Part shown: positions 5,145 to 11,558 of the stretch, one piece after another
How the letters are laid out: each line of letters starts with the position of its first letter
How positions within the stretch are numbered: the first letter of the stretch is position 1
Assembly: GCA_937868565.1 (NCBI GenBank)
Contig: CALMND010000429.1
Span: 1-37,330 of the forward strand
Direction of reading: 5' to 3'
Origin: an uncultured Bacteroidota bacterium
Lineage (GTDB): Bacteria; Bacteroidota; Bacteroidia; B-17B0; Aurantibacillaceae
DNA length: 37,330 nt
The notes under the pieces: model-generated
Seen by the model: only the letters and a program-made list of their open reading frames with translations
Databases searched by the model: none
What the model was told of the DNA's origin: nothing
Program-made: the position numbers and the translations under genes

Positions 5145-5364
5145 TAGTAACAATTTCTTAATACACAGCCCAAATATCTTAAAAATATGGCCAGTTATAA
5201 AAGAACGGCTCATTAAACCCAGAAAGTTTGAAATATTTGTACTAAAATGACGTTAAAAACATAAAAATACTGAGTTACGATTTTTTCTTCAAAACTATTT
5301 TAATTAAGTTTGGCGTTCTAATTTTCAAATGAATTTAAAGAAATACTAATAAAACAAAACAAAT
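5145..5364. other. Intergenic region between divergent mmcQ-like gene and exbB
   Basis: This 220-base, very A+T-rich spacer is the longest in the window. It must hold the start signals for both divergent units. I see the exbB -7 box at 5305-5312 but no RNA gene, hairpin or long repeat. Confidence 0.6.
5305..5312 (+). promoter_or_regulatory. Candidate -7 box (TAAGTTTG) for the exbB-tonB cluster
   Basis: This is an exact TAnnTTTG match 52 bases upstream of the exbB ATG, giving a leader of about 48 bases. The expected -33 TTG is not clear; only T-rich sequence is present there. Confidence 0.4.
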
Positions 5365-6168
5365 ATGAGCACAAAAAAAACATCGGGAGGGTTCCCATTA
5401 ATTGTTTCGGCGTTGGCAATTGTAATTTGCCTTTTAATAGGCGTTTTTATATATAAAGGCGTACTGGGAGCAGCTTCTAATTTTGAAGGTGGTGATGCGG
5501 ATAAAGGACACCCGCACAATATTTTAGGGACCATGTACAAAGGAGGGTTTATTGTGCCAATTTTGATTGGTTTTTTATTAACGGTGATTACGTTTGCAAT
5601 TGAGCGCTTTATAACAATCATGAAAGCTAGCGGTAGCGGCCAAACGGATAAGTTTGTGGGAAAAATTAAAACATTGATTTCTACTCACGACTTTGATGCC
5701 GCAGTTGCCGAATGTGATAAACAAAAGGGCTCCTTAGCTAATGTAGTTCACGAAGGTATTATGAAATACAAGTTTGTACAAAGTGATACCCATATGGACA
5801 AGGAAGCAAAAGTACATGCAATTCAAAAAGCTCTAGAAGAAGCAACCGCTTTGGAACTTCCTATGTTATCTAAGAACATGGTGGTTATTTCGACTATGGC
5901 GTCTATTGGAACTTTGGCTGGTCTTATAGGAACGGTAGTGGGTATGATTCGCGCTTTCGCTGCCCTATCAGCTGCCGGCGCGCCTGACACTTCTGCTCTT
6001 GCTACGGGTATTTCTGAAGCCCTTGTAAACACTTTGGTGGGAATTTTAACCTCCGCTTTTGCGATTATTTTTTACAATTACTTTAGTAACCGTATTGATC
6101 AGATAACTTATTCTATGGACGAGGCGGGCTTTTCTATCATACAAGAATTTCAGGCTACAGGGAAATAA
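5365..6168 (+). CDS. exbB: MotA/TolQ/ExbB proton channel family protein
   Basis: The 267-residue inner-membrane protein has four hydrophobic segments: near residues 9-33, 57-83, 170-200 and 212-237. The last two, with GTLAGLIGTVVGMIRAF and ALVNTLVGILTSAFAII, are the conserved ExbB/TolQ pore helices, and the stretch between helices 2 and 3 is cytoplasmic. The extra N-terminal helix is usual in Bacteroidota homologues. With ExbD it turns proton flow into work on TonB. It opens a cluster exbB-exbD-exbD-tonB with spacers of 67, 18 and 15 bases, so the four genes are probably one operon. Confidence 0.95.
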   Translation: MSTKKTSGGFPLIVSALAIVICLLIGVFIYKGVLGAASNFEGGDADKGHPHNILGTMYKGGFIVPILIGFLLTVITFAIERFITIMKASGSGQTDKFVGKIKTLISTHDFDAAVAECDKQKGSLANVVHEGIMKYKFVQSDTHMDKEAKVHAIQKALEEATALELPMLSKNMVVISTMASIGTLAGLIGTVVGMIRAFAALSAAGAPDTSALATGISEALVNTLVGILTSAFAIIFYNYFSNRIDQITYSMDEAGFSIIQEFQATGK

Positions 6169-6235
6169 AACTAGTAAAATTTTCCTGAGTTTTATGGAAA
6201 TTAAATAAAGTATTCATCTATATAATAAAGAAGTA

Positions 6236-6922
6236 ATGTCAAAAAAACCATCAAAAGGCGGAGCACCAGCGTTAGACATGACGCCCATGGTAGATTTGGC
6301 CTTCCTATTGGTTACCTTTTTTATGTTGACTGCTAGTTTCCGCATGGCAGAACCGGTAGTAGTTGACCCGCCTTCTTCAATAGGGATTGTTGATTTACCA
6401 GACAATCATATCATGGTAACCATTGATGATAAAGGAAGAGCTTTTTTTTTTTTTTTTAATTCCACCGCAAAAATGAATGCCCTAAGGGCTATGGCGGCCA
6501 GATACAAGGTAAATTTTACAGAAGAGCAAATAGTTAAATTTAGCGGCCTGCCTAGTTTTGGAGTTGATTTGAAAGATTTACCAAAGTACATTGATGCCAA
6601 GGAAGAAGAGCGCAAAAATTTTCAGCCGCAAAAAGGAGTGCCTTTAGATACGATTACCCCGAACAACCAATTAAAAGATTGGATTCAAATTGGAGGAACT
6701 GAAGCCGTGAGAATATTTGAAGCTGCAAAACAGAAGGCGCGAGAAGCTAACCAGGAATTTAAAGCAGAGAAACCCCGTTATGCCATAAAATGTGCAGCCA
6801 ACACAAAGTATATATATGTGAAAGATGTTATCAAAGCTTTTACCGATTTAAAACTATATCAATTTAATTTGATTACCTCGCTGGAAGGTGGGGGAACCGT
6901 AATTGAGCCAAGCAAAAAATAA
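6236..6922 (+). CDS. exbD: ExbD/TolR biopolymer transport protein, first copy
   Basis: The 228-residue protein has a short cytoplasmic N-terminus, one membrane helix (about residues 20-36) and a periplasmic domain. DMTPMVDLAF carries the proton-accepting Asp (D20). The periplasmic part is longer than in proteobacterial ExbD (about 140 residues), as is common in this phylum. It contains five Phe in a row (GRAFFFFFN) encoded by a run of sixteen T (6442-6457), exactly where a beta strand is expected. A one-base slip there would truncate the protein. It pairs with the second ExbD, and Bacteroidota often carry two in tandem. Confidence 0.94.
   Translation: MSKKPSKGGAPALDMTPMVDLAFLLVTFFMLTASFRMAEPVVVDPPSSIGIVDLPDNHIMVTIDDKGRAFFFFFNSTAKMNALRAMAARYKVNFTEEQIVKFSGLPSFGVDLKDLPKYIDAKEEERKNFQPQKGVPLDTITPNNQLKDWIQIGGTEAVRIFEAAKQKAREANQEFKAEKPRYAIKCAANTKYIYVKDVIKAFTDLKLYQFNLITSLEGGGTVIEPSKK
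6442..6457 (+). repeat. Homopolymer run of 16 T inside exbD
   Basis: Positions 6442-6457 are all T. The reading frame is intact at this length (last T of an Ala codon plus five TTT codons). Runs this long are prone to polymerase slippage and sequencing error. Confidence 0.97.
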
Positions 6923-6940
6923 AATTAAAAAACTTAGCAA

Positions 6941-7585
6941 ATGGCAGAAATAGCAGAAGGTGGTAGTGGTGGTCACAAGGGTGGAAAGAAACGTGCTAAA
7001 AAACAGAGTACGCGTATTGACATGACGCCAATGGTGGATTTGGCATTTTTACTATTAACGTTTTTCGTTTTAACAGCCACGTTTAGCAAACCAAAATCAA
7101 TGGAGTTAACCTTTCCCGCGCCTCCTCCACCGGATCAGAAAATCGAAGAGGTTAAAAAAGGGATAACTCTTTTACTATCAAAAGATAATCGCATTTTTTA
7201 CTACGAGGGGCAGTTTAGGGCGGCTGATGATGACAAAGGAAAAAAAACAGTGTTAGCAGAATTAAATTTTTCCCAGGATTCAAAAGAAAGTTTACATAAA
7301 TATTTACTTGAGAAAAATAAAGAAATGCATGAACAAATTAAAGCTTTGGATGCTAAGCATAAAGCCAATCAATTAGCCGACACTACATTTAAGCGCTTAG
7401 TAAGAGAACGTAAAGCGGATAAGGAATCATATACCTATTTAATTAAAACTGATGATAAAGCAACGTATAAAAATGTGATTGATGTAATTGATGAGTTAAA
7501 CATTAATGTAGTGGGCAAGTACGTGATGGTAGATATTTTGAAGCCAGAACTCGACTTGGTCGTAGAAAAAGTGGGAGCAAACTAA
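6941..7585 (+). CDS. exbD: ExbD/TolR biopolymer transport protein, second copy
   Basis: The 214-residue protein has the same layout as the preceding copy: a basic Gly/Lys-rich N-terminus, then DMTPMVDLAFLLLTFFVLT with the proton-accepting Asp at D33, one membrane helix, and a periplasmic domain. A Pro-rich link (PAPPPPD) follows the helix. The periplasmic part contains a long charged helix (about residues 105-160), then a strand-rich end (VIDVIDELNINVVGKYVMVDI). The N-terminal helix is near-identical to copy one, but the periplasmic domains differ strongly. The two may therefore form a hetero-oligomer or serve different partners. Confidence 0.94.
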   Translation: MAEIAEGGSGGHKGGKKRAKKQSTRIDMTPMVDLAFLLLTFFVLTATFSKPKSMELTFPAPPPPDQKIEEVKKGITLLLSKDNRIFYYEGQFRAADDDKGKKTVLAELNFSQDSKESLHKYLLEKNKEMHEQIKALDAKHKANQLADTTFKRLVRERKADKESYTYLIKTDDKATYKNVIDVIDELNINVVGKYVMVDILKPELDLVVEKVGAN

Positions 7586-7600
7586 TTTTAGGAGGTAAAC

Positions 7601-8455
7601 ATGTTAATTCTTTTAATATCAATTTTTTCGATAGTGTCCATAGTGATGCTGCGCCTCGATTTAAAAACCGGTTGGAATGGAGAGAGCTACATTTCAAGAA
7701 ATGGCATTGTATTTAGCGGGAGGAATCAGGATTACGGCGCTTATGAATTAAGAAATAATTATAACAGACGTTTAACCTTTATTATTGGAGGAGTAATTTT
7801 ATTTTCTTTTGTTGTTTTTGGATTAAAAATGTTTGTGGACAGACCGCAAGAAGAAGAAGTGGTTGAAAAAATGGAGGTCACACAAATAGATTTAACGCCA
7901 CCACCACCCGTGGAAGAAACACCACCGCCACCACCGCCACCACCGCCACCACCCATGGTTGAAATGGTAAAGTTTGTGCCACCAGTTATTAAAGATGACG
8001 CCGTTGAAGAAGAGCCTCAAAAATTACAAGAGGAGGTAAAAGACGCAAACGTAAGCACAAAAGATCAGGAAGGGGAAAAGGATATTGTTGCCCCACCAAC
8101 AGAAATTGCAGGCCCTGCTGAGCCGGCACAACCGGAGATTTTTACAATTGTAGAAGAGCAGGCTGAATTTCCGGGCGGGCAAATTGCGATGATGAAATTT
8201 ATGCAGGCTAACACACAATATCCTGCAGCCGCCCGTGAGGCTGGTATTGGTGGAAAATGCTTTTTAAAGTTTGTGGTAAATGAAAACGGAGACATAAGCA
8301 ATGTGGAAATATTAAAAGGCGTACCTGGTTGTTCGGACTGCGACAAGGAAGCAATTCGCGTTGTAAAGTCTATGCCAAAATGGAAAGCTGCGAAAATGAC
8401 CGGACGTGCCGTTAAATGTTATTTCAACCTACCTTTTAGTTTCAAAATTCAATAA
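7601..8455 (+). CDS. tonB: Energy transducer TonB
   Basis: The 284-residue protein has a GRNQDYGAYELR motif (about residues 40-51), typical just before the TonB membrane helix in this phylum, then the helix (about 59-77). A Pro-rich linker with eleven consecutive Pro follows, then an acidic stretch, and the C-terminal TonB domain (about 195-284: FPGGQIAMMKFMQANTQYP, GKCFLKFVVNENGDI, VVKSMPKW). It carries force from ExbBD to outer-membrane receptors. The start is debatable. ATG 7601 follows a perfect AGGAGGT at 7590-7596 and adds a second hydrophobic stretch (residues 2-16). ATG 7646 would give the usual one-helix form (269 residues). I kept 7601 because of the ribosome binding site. Confidence 0.92.
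   Translation: MLILLISIFSIVSIVMLRLDLKTGWNGESYISRNGIVFSGRNQDYGAYELRNNYNRRLTFIIGGVILFSFVVFGLKMFVDRPQEEEVVEKMEVTQIDLTPPPPVEETPPPPPPPPPPPMVEMVKFVPPVIKDDAVEEEPQKLQEEVKDANVSTKDQEGEKDIVAPPTEIAGPAEPAQPEIFTIVEEQAEFPGGQIAMMKFMQANTQYPAAAREAGIGGKCFLKFVVNENGDISNVEILKGVPGCSDCDKEAIRVVKSMPKWKAAKMTGRAVKCYFNLPFSFKIQ
7901..7955 (+). repeat. Proline-codon repeat (CCACCG units) in tonB
   Basis: A tandem run of CCA/CCG/CCC codons encodes the polyproline part of the TonB linker. Imperfect 6-base units (CCACCG, CCACCA) make expansion or contraction likely between strains. Confidence 0.85.
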
Positions 8456-8475
8456 TACGTATTCTAATAATCAAG

Positions 8476-8505
8476 AAGCCATAACAGAAGTTGTGGCTTT
8501 TTTTT
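8476..8505 (+). terminator. Rho-independent terminator after tonB
   Basis: A 10-base-pair stem (AAGCCATAAC / GTTGTGGCTT, one G-U pair, loop AGAA at 8486-8489) runs directly into eight T. It begins 21 bases after the tonB stop and ends 12 bases before the next start codon. Confidence 0.88.
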
Positions 8506-8516
8506 CGGACAAAAAA

Positions 8517-8732
8517 ATGAAATTAGGATTAAATTCAATTTCCAATTGGTTTGGAATGGTAATGATAGTAATAGTTCTTGCTGGAGCAATTGCAGTGAGT
8601 TTTACCGATTTTATGATCGACAGACTTTATGGAACCAAACGTATTTTTTTTGTGGTGCTTATGTTAGCTTATGCAATTTATCGAGGAGTTAGAATTTACC
8701 AGACAATGAAACAAAACCGCCATGAAGAATAG
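8517..8732 (+). CDS. Small two-helix membrane protein
   Basis: The ATG at 8517 gives 71 residues. The frame is open further upstream, but that part overlaps tonB and the terminator and is not protein-like. Two hydrophobic helices are visible (about residues 9-27 and 39-58), linked by a short loop with DFMIDRLYGTKR, and the C-terminus is basic. I do not recognise a characterised family; similar short proteins occur between tonB and PstS-like genes in this phylum. The stop overlaps the next start by 11 bases (ATGAAGAATAG), so the next gene is translationally coupled. Confidence 0.75.
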   Translation: MKLGLNSISNWFGMVMIVIVLAGAIAVSFTDFMIDRLYGTKRIFFVVLMLAYAIYRGVRIYQTMKQNRHEE

Positions 8733-9702
8733 TATTTCTTGTTCTTGGTTCTTCTCTTACCTTGCCTCTTGGCCCCCTTTCTGTCTTGCCTCCAGCCTTT
8801 TTTTACTGAATTCATGTTCTAATTATTTTAAAAACGACTATAAAGATAACTCCCCCACTTCGGGGCAATTAAGAGTGTATTATGATGAAGGTCTTCACCG
8901 CCACGCTAAAAATCAAATTTTTACGTTTGAATCACTGTACGGAGAGGTAGATATTACAGAGGCCTGCACTTCAGAAAGCGAAGCCATACAAGCCTTGTAT
9001 AACGACAGCTGCGAGGCAATTATGATTTCGCGCACACTCAACCTAAGCGAAAAGAAAGCATTTGAATCCAAAAAGTATTTTCCTAAATATTCGCCGGTCG
9101 CTTTGAGTGGAATTGCGCTCATTACTAATTCCGCAACGCCTTTAAAAGGATTAAAACAAGAAGAAATTTTAAAACTTCTAACCCAATCTTATTTTTTTAA
9201 CGACTCTTTGGGCAATGAAATTAAATTGAAAGTGTTATTGGATAAAAATAACTCATCCGTTATTCATTATCTAACGGATAGCGTTTTACACGCACAAAAA
9301 TTTTCTTCCGACTGTAATGTAATAGGGTCCACTTTACAAACCATCAATCATGTAGCAAAAAATAAAAACACGGTTGCATTTATTGATTTTGCTTGGCTAA
9401 GTGATGTGGATGATTCTATCACCAGAGCCAATAAAGATCTCATAAAATTAATACCAATAACAAAGACAGGAAGCAACGAATATGTTTTCCCAAGTCAAAG
9501 CAGTTTTAAAACAGGAAAGTATCCCTTTATCAGAACAGTTTATGTGATGCGAAAAACAGGAGATTTTACATTAGCAAAAGGGTTTGAAAGTTTTGTAGCG
9601 GGGCCTAAAGGGCAATTAATCTTTTTAAAACAAGGGCTTTTACCTTCACGACAGGCCGAAAGAATGGTTGAGATTAAATTGGAGCCTATGGATGTAAAAT
9701 AA
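8722..9702 (+). CDS. PstS-like substrate-binding lipoprotein
   Basis: The 326-residue protein has a lipoprotein signal with the lipobox LLNSC (lipidated Cys at residue 32). The mature part resembles the PstS-like periplasmic binding fold: GQLRVYYDEGL opening strand, EAIQALYNDSCEAIMISRTL, YSPVALSGIALITN, GLKQEEILKLLTQ, and the late VMRKTGDFTLAKGFESFVAGPKGQLIFLKQGLLPS. No pstC, pstA or pstB is nearby, so classic ABC phosphate uptake is not indicated. The link to tonB suggests a role at the outer membrane or in phosphate sensing; this is inference. The gene overlaps the preceding small membrane gene by 11 bases. Confidence 0.82.
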   Translation: MKNSISCSWFFSYLASWPPFCLASSLFLLNSCSNYFKNDYKDNSPTSGQLRVYYDEGLHRHAKNQIFTFESLYGEVDITEACTSESEAIQALYNDSCEAIMISRTLNLSEKKAFESKKYFPKYSPVALSGIALITNSATPLKGLKQEEILKLLTQSYFFNDSLGNEIKLKVLLDKNNSSVIHYLTDSVLHAQKFSSDCNVIGSTLQTINHVAKNKNTVAFIDFAWLSDVDDSITRANKDLIKLIPITKTGSNEYVFPSQSSFKTGKYPFIRTVYVMRKTGDFTLAKGFESFVAGPKGQLIFLKQGLLPSRQAERMVEIKLEPMDVK

Positions 9703-9750
9703 GTATGGAAAATCTCATAAAATTCCTTAAAAACACAACATTAATTTGGG

Positions 9751-9767
9751 TTGGCACCAGCTTTGCA
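9751..9767 (+). promoter_or_regulatory. Sigma-54 (RpoN) -24/-12 promoter
   Basis: TTGGCAC-N5-TTGCA fits the sigma-54 consensus exactly, with GG at 9753-9754 and GC at 9765-9766 separated by the required ten bases. It is intergenic, on the coding strand, 40 bases before the TPR gene ATG at 9807. Transcription would start near 9778. Such promoters need an AAA+ enhancer-binding activator; none is encoded in the window. Confidence 0.8.
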
Positions 9768-9806
9768 AACAGTTAAATAGTTATTTTTAAACTTTATAAT
9801 ACTAAG

Positions 9807-11558
9807 ATGAAAAACAAATTTTTTGCCCTATTTACGACTTTCACTTCACTAGTTGCTTTTGGGCAACCACTTCAGGACGCAGTGAAAAAAACAGAGAACG
9901 AAAACTTTGATGCAGCTGCGATTGATTTCAAGGGACTCATACAAAGAGAGCCAAATAAAGGCGAAAATTACTTTTATTTTGGAGAGAATTTTTTCAAACG
10001 TGGAGAAATTGACAGCGCCAATATGCTTTATACTAAAGGTGCTGAGGTGAATGCAACCAATCCCTTAAACTACGCAGGTTTAGGAAAAGTCCTTTTAGCC
10101 AAAGGAAATGTGAACGACGCCAAAACGCAATTTTACAAGGCGATTACTCTAGGGGCAAATAAAAATATGGTTTTACTAAGAAAGATTGCTGAAGCGTGGT
10201 TAGTCACAGATAATAAAAATCCTGATGAAGCCTTAATCCATGCAAACAACGCCGTTAAACTAGAGCCAAAGAATTCAGAAAATTATATTGTTCTGGGAGA
10301 CGCGCAATTGGAAAAAAACCCAACAGACGGCAGTGGCCCGATTAAAAGTTATAAAATGGCAACAACACTTAATCCCAAGAGCACTGCGGGAATTTTGAGA
10401 GAGGGAAAATTGTACCAGCGAGGCCGCAATTATCAATTAGCTTTGGACAAGTATAGAGAAGCGGAGGCGATTGACGCAAATTATGCCCCAGCATATCGCG
10501 AAAAGGCAGAGTTGTTTTTTCTAGTGGGGCAACCGGCAAAATCAATCGAGAACTGGAAAAAATACATGGAGCTTAATAATAGCGATTACGCGCGTTACCG
10601 TTTTATGAGCGCCTTGTATAATAACAAACAATTCAAAGAAGCTTCGGCCGAGTATGAGAATCTAAAAAGGCAAAATTTTAAAAATCTTTACATGGAACGG
10701 TTAGCAGGATACAGCTACGAGGAGATGGGTGATAAAACCGACAAGGACGCTTATAACAAAGGATTATTAGCATTAGATAAATTTTTCGAAATGGCGGGAT
10801 CTTCTTTTAAGTATATAGCAAACGACTATAAATACAGGGGCTTGCTATTGTACCATTTAGGAAAAGATTCGTTAGGACAAATCGAGATTGAAAAGGCAAT
10901 TGTATTAGATCCTGCGATTAAACCAGAAGTATATGGTAAGTTAGGTAAAATCGCTGTTGATGCGAAAAATTATAAAAAGGTAATTAGTTACTACGAAAAG
11001 AAAAAGGAAGGCGACTATAAGGCTCTTACGATTATTGAAAATTTTGATTTGGGAAAAGCTTATTACAATTATGGTTTAGGAATAAGAAAACAAATTAGCG
11101 AGCAGAAAGACGAGCTTATCAAAAAGAAAAAACCAACGGACAATCCGGAAATAAAAGCCAAAGAAACAGAAACAGTTTCCATTATGATTCATGCTGACTC
11201 TGCATTTAAAAGAGTTACGCAGTTAAATCCTGGATACATTTTAGGGCCTATTTGGAGAGGTCGCGTTAACTCATTATTGGACCCAGATGTAAAAAGTGAT
11301 TCAACGAAAGTATTTTATGAAAAAGCAATATCCATTATGAAGCCCGAAGACAAGACAGGGTCATATAAAAGTAATTTAATTGAGGCTTATGAATACTTGG
11401 GATATTACTATGTAAGCAAAAAAGATAAGGCGAACTCAGATGCTATATTTAATCAGTTAAAGGAAGTCGACCCCGCCAACGAGAAAGCCAAAAACTATTT
11501 TAATCCTCCTAAACCAGCTTCAGCAAAAACAGTAACAAAACCGACGGGAAAAAAGTAG
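9807..11558 (+). CDS. Exported tetratricopeptide-repeat protein
   Basis: The 583-residue protein has a signal peptide (residues 1-19, ending AFGQ), then TPR-type helical repeats across most of its length, for example YFYFGENFFKRGEIDSANM, YAGLGKVLLAKGNVNDAK and AYREKAELFFLVGQPAKS. A Lys-rich charged insert lies near 435-455 and the last 20 residues are Lys/Pro/Thr-rich. TPR proteins are scaffolds, and this one should act in the periplasm. It is the last member of the exbB-tonB-pstS-like cluster, a gene order common in this phylum. Here a 104-base gap and a sigma-54 promoter separate it from the preceding gene, so it may be expressed independently. Confidence 0.88.
   Translation: MKNKFFALFTTFTSLVAFGQPLQDAVKKTENENFDAAAIDFKGLIQREPNKGENYFYFGENFFKRGEIDSANMLYTKGAEVNATNPLNYAGLGKVLLAKGNVNDAKTQFYKAITLGANKNMVLLRKIAEAWLVTDNKNPDEALIHANNAVKLEPKNSENYIVLGDAQLEKNPTDGSGPIKSYKMATTLNPKSTAGILREGKLYQRGRNYQLALDKYREAEAIDANYAPAYREKAELFFLVGQPAKSIENWKKYMELNNSDYARYRFMSALYNNKQFKEASAEYENLKRQNFKNLYMERLAGYSYEEMGDKTDKDAYNKGLLALDKFFEMAGSSFKYIANDYKYRGLLLYHLGKDSLGQIEIEKAIVLDPAIKPEVYGKLGKIAVDAKNYKKVISYYEKKKEGDYKALTIIENFDLGKAYYNYGLGIRKQISEQKDELIKKKKPTDNPEIKAKETETVSIMIHADSAFKRVTQLNPGYILGPIWRGRVNSLLDPDVKSDSTKVFYEKAISIMKPEDKTGSYKSNLIEAYEYLGYYYVSKKDKANSDAIFNQLKEVDPANEKAKNYFNPPKPASAKTVTKPTGKK

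Follow-up and report, generated by a model that had tools for sequence, protein, structure and literature searches.

Introduction

In the metagenome-assembled genome of an uncultured Bacteroidota bacterium of the family Aurantibacillaceae, a gene for an exported TPR-repeat protein follows a TonB cluster and a gene for a PstS-like binding protein (PBP), and the spacer before it holds a string that reads as a sigma-54 promoter. The question raised by this locus, which lies in a stretch of 37,330 nucleotides (the window), is whether this string is a functional promoter, and if so whether RpoN controls the TPR gene alone and which activator would serve it.

The element and its setting

A first-pass annotation of the window had placed a sigma-54 promoter directed into the TPR gene at 9751-9767 on the forward strand, and its sequence, position and orientation are all exact (Table 1). 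The site combines the GG-N10-GC arrangement with the full TGGCAC-N5-TTGC consensus by which sigma-54 promoters are recognised. As also described, it lies in a 104-bp spacer, bounded by the PBP stop codon at 9700-9702 and the ATG of the TPR gene at 9807, and it is the single exact TGGCAC-N5-TTGC in the window. The spacer was checked for a terminator and for an E. coli-type sigma-70 promoter, and neither was found. Comparison of the TPR protein with solved structures returned generic TPR matches only.

Table 1. Coordinates of the promoter elements and genes discussed in the text.
Feature	Position	Strand	Basis
Sigma-54 -24/-12 element TTGGCAC-N5-TTGCA, TTGGCACCAGCTTTGCA	9751-9767	+	exact sequence match and conservation
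Predicted sigma-54 transcript start	9778	+	12 nt past the C of the -12 GC; inferred from element positions
TPR-repeat protein gene, the promoter's target; 583 aa, apparent signal peptide	9807-11558	+	
PBP_like_2 (PstS-like) gene, upstream neighbour of the TPR gene	8722-9702	+	PF12849, 2e-18
exbB-exbD-exbD-tonB plus 108-aa ORF	5365-8732	+	
TATTTTTA, TAnnTTTA, one base off the primary-sigma -7 box of Bacteroidota, TAnnTTTG	9782-9789	+	
Two A-tracts, AAAA 9719-9722 and TAAAAA 9728-9733	9719-9733	+	ungapped conserved columns
TAAGTTTG, primary-sigma -7 box of exbB	5305-5312	+	exact in the window and 4 relatives

Conservation within and beyond the genus

Alignment of the spacer in related genomes, proposed earlier as a check, shows a GG/GC-type site in much of the genus. 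Among the 35 genomes of the genus with a readable spacer, the window's included, the pattern TGGYAY-N5-TTGYA is full in 23, slightly different in five and lost in seven, counts that are not independent since the genomes are related, with about five changes of the full/not-full label needed on the tree. Shuffled spacers gave 0 matches to the same pattern in 9000 trials. In the 28 retained sites (23 full and five near), constancy at the GG, A and TTG positions is 96-100%, and variation is found mostly at C/T pairs and in the five-base spacer, which are positions that sigma-54 tolerates. Almost every genome of the genus has a TPR homologue, at a protein identity of only about 48-66%. The -24/-12 element is not essential, as the seven genomes that lost it retain both rpoN and the TPR gene. 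Loss of the site through loss of rpoN is ruled out, since every genus genome searched retains rpoN.

Several relatives have TonB_C-like genes, from one to three of them, separating PBP from TPR, and in most of these the site still adjoins the TPR gene. Small-gene insertions that match TonB were noted at L025, L027, L029, L036, L037, L043, L044, L045 and L048. Two genomes (G026 and G027) have their TPR gene apart from the TonB cluster, with a divergent 828-aa gene as upstream neighbour, and the site is still present in both. As judged from these arrangements, the promoter module belongs to the TPR gene. Gene order makes the earlier suggestion of a TPR protein that partners the TonB/PstS-like system plausible, although in G026 and G027 the gene has the site away from the cluster.

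Beyond the genus, the site is carried by the sister genera g25 (TTGGCACTTAACTTGCT, TTGGCACCAAACTTGAA), g28 (ATGGCACCAAGCTTGAC) and g33 (TTGGCACACATTTCGCA), and g27 has the variant TGGCAGGYAAATTGA in its place. The other families of the class mostly retain the PBP-TPR gene neighbourhood but in most cases have no such site in the spacer, a possible exception being TAGGCACAATTTTTGTA in the L101 spacer. Deep conservation in these families was considered and rejected: look-alikes such as TTGGCATGGGATTTGTA sit inside the PBP gene, most of them being the codons for a Gly-Leu-Gly-X-Gly-Phe motif. At L095-L105 these codons mimic a -24/-12 promoter and form a trap for scans without gene masking.

A second promoter element in the spacer

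The primary sigma factor of Bacteroidota recognises a -7 box of consensus TAnnTTTG (PMC9723704). Such a box, TAAGTTTG, sits 46-60 bp before exbB and is conserved in the window and 4 relatives, which bears out the earlier assignment of exbB to the primary sigma factor. In the TPR spacer, TATTTTTA comes shortly after the predicted sigma-54 start and ends in A, where the consensus has G. Throughout the genus every full -24/-12 element is followed by a TAnnTTTA, 30-33 bp downstream of the start of the site. Enrichment in the -45..-15 region before the genus's other genes is about 8-fold for TAnnTTTG and only about 2-fold for TAnnTTTA, so the A form would be a plausible yet weaker -7 box; TATTTTTA may thus be weak, or it may be a feature of the 5' leader. 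The -12 element contains a TTTG (9762-9765), 20 bp before TATTTTTA and about where a -33 TTTG is expected, and from the positions of these elements an alternative primary-sigma start would fall near 9794.

Further upstream, the two A-tracts are 10 bp apart and their distance from the -24 element does not vary; relative to the predicted sigma-54 start they lie at about -59 to -45. Across 28 aligned genomes their columns are conserved at 93-100% (-32..-29) and 82-100% (-23..-19), and they are largely retained in genomes without the sigma-54 site. They are a candidate UP element, contacted by the alpha-CTD, or a candidate bend.

The first-pass annotation had put the TPR gene under RpoN. Conservation of the site, together with the rpoN gene and activators described below, makes it very probable that a working sigma-54 promoter drives the TPR gene; control by RpoN alone has to be softened because of the conserved -7 box in the spacer, which nearly all site-loss lineages keep. 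The reading preferred here is a composite sigma-54/primary-sigma promoter before the TPR gene, to which a probability of roughly 0.55 is assigned. Were the gene instead wholly RpoN-dependent, the TAnnTTTA would be a 5'-leader or translation feature. That the box of the genus lacks the consensus G while exbB in the same genus has a perfect box is consistent with such sole dependence, which is nevertheless rather unlikely in view of the perfect TAnnTTTG that several sister genera have near the same place and of the retention of the box in nearly all lineages without the -24/-12 element. Less probable again is a promoter of the primary sigma factor only, in which the TTTG at 9762-9765 and TATTTTTA are the true elements and TGGCAC is incidental. 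The distance of about 20 bp is the expected one and the -7 box is kept more widely than the sigma-54 site, but this leaves unexplained why GG and A stay invariant, each a set distance ahead of the -12 G, in 28 genomes, and why the site recurs in sister genera.

Chance matches and further sites in the genus

Within the window, 33 matches to TGGCAC-N5-TTGC with at most two mismatches were found against 27.6 expected, so the looser matches are noise. The 3.44-Mb genome holds 10 exact matches, most of them within genes. A genome-wide excess of the motif is absent in 23 genomes of the genus, where summed per-genome counts are 147 for the N5 spacing and 229 for N6. A lone exact match is therefore weak evidence. 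The N6 spacing served as control in place of the reversed pattern, which was discarded since it has CG dinucleotides and these are expected to be rare in AT-rich DNA. Such counts, and the codon artefact within the PBP gene that is the best match near the locus in other families, would suit a functionless look-alike, but this explanation is contradicted by the fact that most of the genus and some of the family conserve both position and pattern and by the presence of the site where the TPR gene lies elsewhere, and is barely credible. The TPR-gene site stands above chance because it is conserved in the same spacer across the genus.

In the absence of a genome-wide excess, the argument was replaced by one from intergenic position. 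With the TPR sites excluded, of the 80 other TGGCAY-N5-TTGCA sites examined, 16 occupy an intergenic position before a gene, compared with 0 of 40 for N6 (p = 0.001), the genomes of the two sets overlapping without being identical; when restricted to the same genomes, the fractions are 7/32 and 0/40 (p = 0.002). Several of the intergenic N5 sites sit before genes for exported proteins and are found again in two or three species. The recurrent sets comprise L140, L155 and L185; L158, L189 and L226; L156, L179 and L188; and L161 and L186, of which the first two sit before exported or lipoprotein-like genes. These sets are probably further sigma-54 promoters of the genus, and by inference from the positions of the intergenic sites sigma-54 would be active in it.

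RpoN and the candidate activators

The first-pass annotation had called for a search of the genome for rpoN and for activators of sigma-54, and both are there. The window's genome encodes RpoN in a 500-aa ORF (PF04552, 8.7e-51), and the gene is likewise found in 36/36 other genomes of the genus (37/37 in total). The window's genome also has a second rpoN, truncated, at a contig edge (L002:1-348), and several relatives have two full rpoN genes.

Four strong PF00158 proteins are present in the window's genome: a partial one located on a contig edge, an AAA+-HTH_8 protein without receiver whose gene is flanked by MiaB-like and LptE-like genes, and two full response regulators. Two activators form a core pair that is kept in the genus and in the other families of the class that were sampled. 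The first, of 383 aa in the genus and somewhat more outside it, is a receiver-AAA+ protein that stops after the lid of the AAA+ domain and has no DNA-binding domain, and the second is an AAA+-HTH_8 protein without receiver, roughly 400-420 aa long; Pfam domains were run on one receiver-AAA+ protein and on the window's own AAA+-HTH protein, the remaining ones being assigned by length and sequence. Loci of the first kind are L273, L274, L276, L278, L280, L282, L283, L284 and L286, and of the second L004, L275, L277, L279, L281 and L285. Activators without a DNA-binding domain and activators without a receiver are each known separately, as groups 5 and 4 (PMC7175178).

Three genomes, G018 (100% complete), G002 and G028, combine a full site with only two activators, the receiver-AAA+ protein having been read out directly and the AAA+-HTH protein deduced from the count. 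If the promoter is sigma-54-dependent there, its activator is one or both of the core pair, which narrows what had been an unknown activator to two core candidates, the receiver-AAA+ protein and the receiver-less AAA+-HTH protein. The region upstream of the TPR promoter where activator sites usually lie overlaps the PBP coding sequence.

Proposed mechanism

In the composite promoter favoured here, sigma-54 RNA polymerase would bind the -24/-12 element, perhaps aided by alpha-CTD contacts at the A-tracts, and the closed complex would wait until a core AAA+ activator opens it for transcription from about 9778. The overlapping primary-sigma promoter would use the TTTG of the -12 element as its -33 and TATTTTTA as its -7 element, with its start downstream of the sigma-54 one. 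Since both polymerases cannot occupy the DNA together, the effect of sigma-54 would be twofold, an additional, inducible transcript and modulation of the basal one. Binding, transcript starts and polymerase competition are here deduced from the elements. The inducing signal may be envelope or protein-folding stress, by analogy with Flavobacterium psychrophilum.

A division of labour between the core activators is conceivable, as one has a receiver without a DNA-binding domain and the other the reverse. The receiver-AAA+ protein would then give the signal and the AAA+-HTH protein, encoded beside lptE/miaB, the DNA address. That the split pair runs the promoter as a mixed hexamer, with the waiting sigma-54 polymerase blocking the primary-sigma promoter so that TPR expression alternates between a basal and a stress mode, is a speculative and rather doubtful extension.

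Relation to known systems and significance

In F. psychrophilum, sigma-54 promoters were mapped before chaperone, envelope-stress, gliding and exported-protein genes, and one of them was confirmed by mutagenesis (PMC9723704). The TPR site resembles the motif SM4 of that species, which belongs to the same phylum and is of the same -24/-12 type, with exported proteins among its targets and few AAA+ activators (PMC9723704). However, the promoters there were mapped while the TPR start is predicted from sequence, and the SM4 table in the main text of that study, which is a selection, has no TPR gene of a TonB/PBP cluster (PMC9723704). Overlapping sigma-54/sigma-70 promoters of E. coli likewise have a sigma-54 site inside the footprint of a housekeeping promoter (PMC4551910); competition was shown in vitro for E. 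coli (PMC4551910), whereas here it is proposed and the primary-sigma consensus differs. Sigma-54 control has also been predicted for TonB (COG0810) in Flavobacteriia, which ties sigma-54 to TonB loci in Bacteroidota (PMC12316311). That prediction concerns TonB itself (PMC12316311), in contrast to the present locus, where the -24/-12 site is confined to the TPR gene and exbB is preceded by a primary-sigma box.

The TPR-gene site is a new, well-conserved example of a known promoter type, the sigma-54 promoter. Some site-bearing relatives have only two activators, of which one has no DNA-binding domain, and this makes the locus a small test case also for the way in which such activators find their promoters. 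The role of sigma-54 in uncultured Bacteroidota is little known, and a site that is genus-wide and partly family-wide singles out one target for study, namely an exported TPR protein whose gene usually adjoins a dedicated ExbBD-TonB set and the gene of a PstS-like binding protein and which would be regulated separately from that set.
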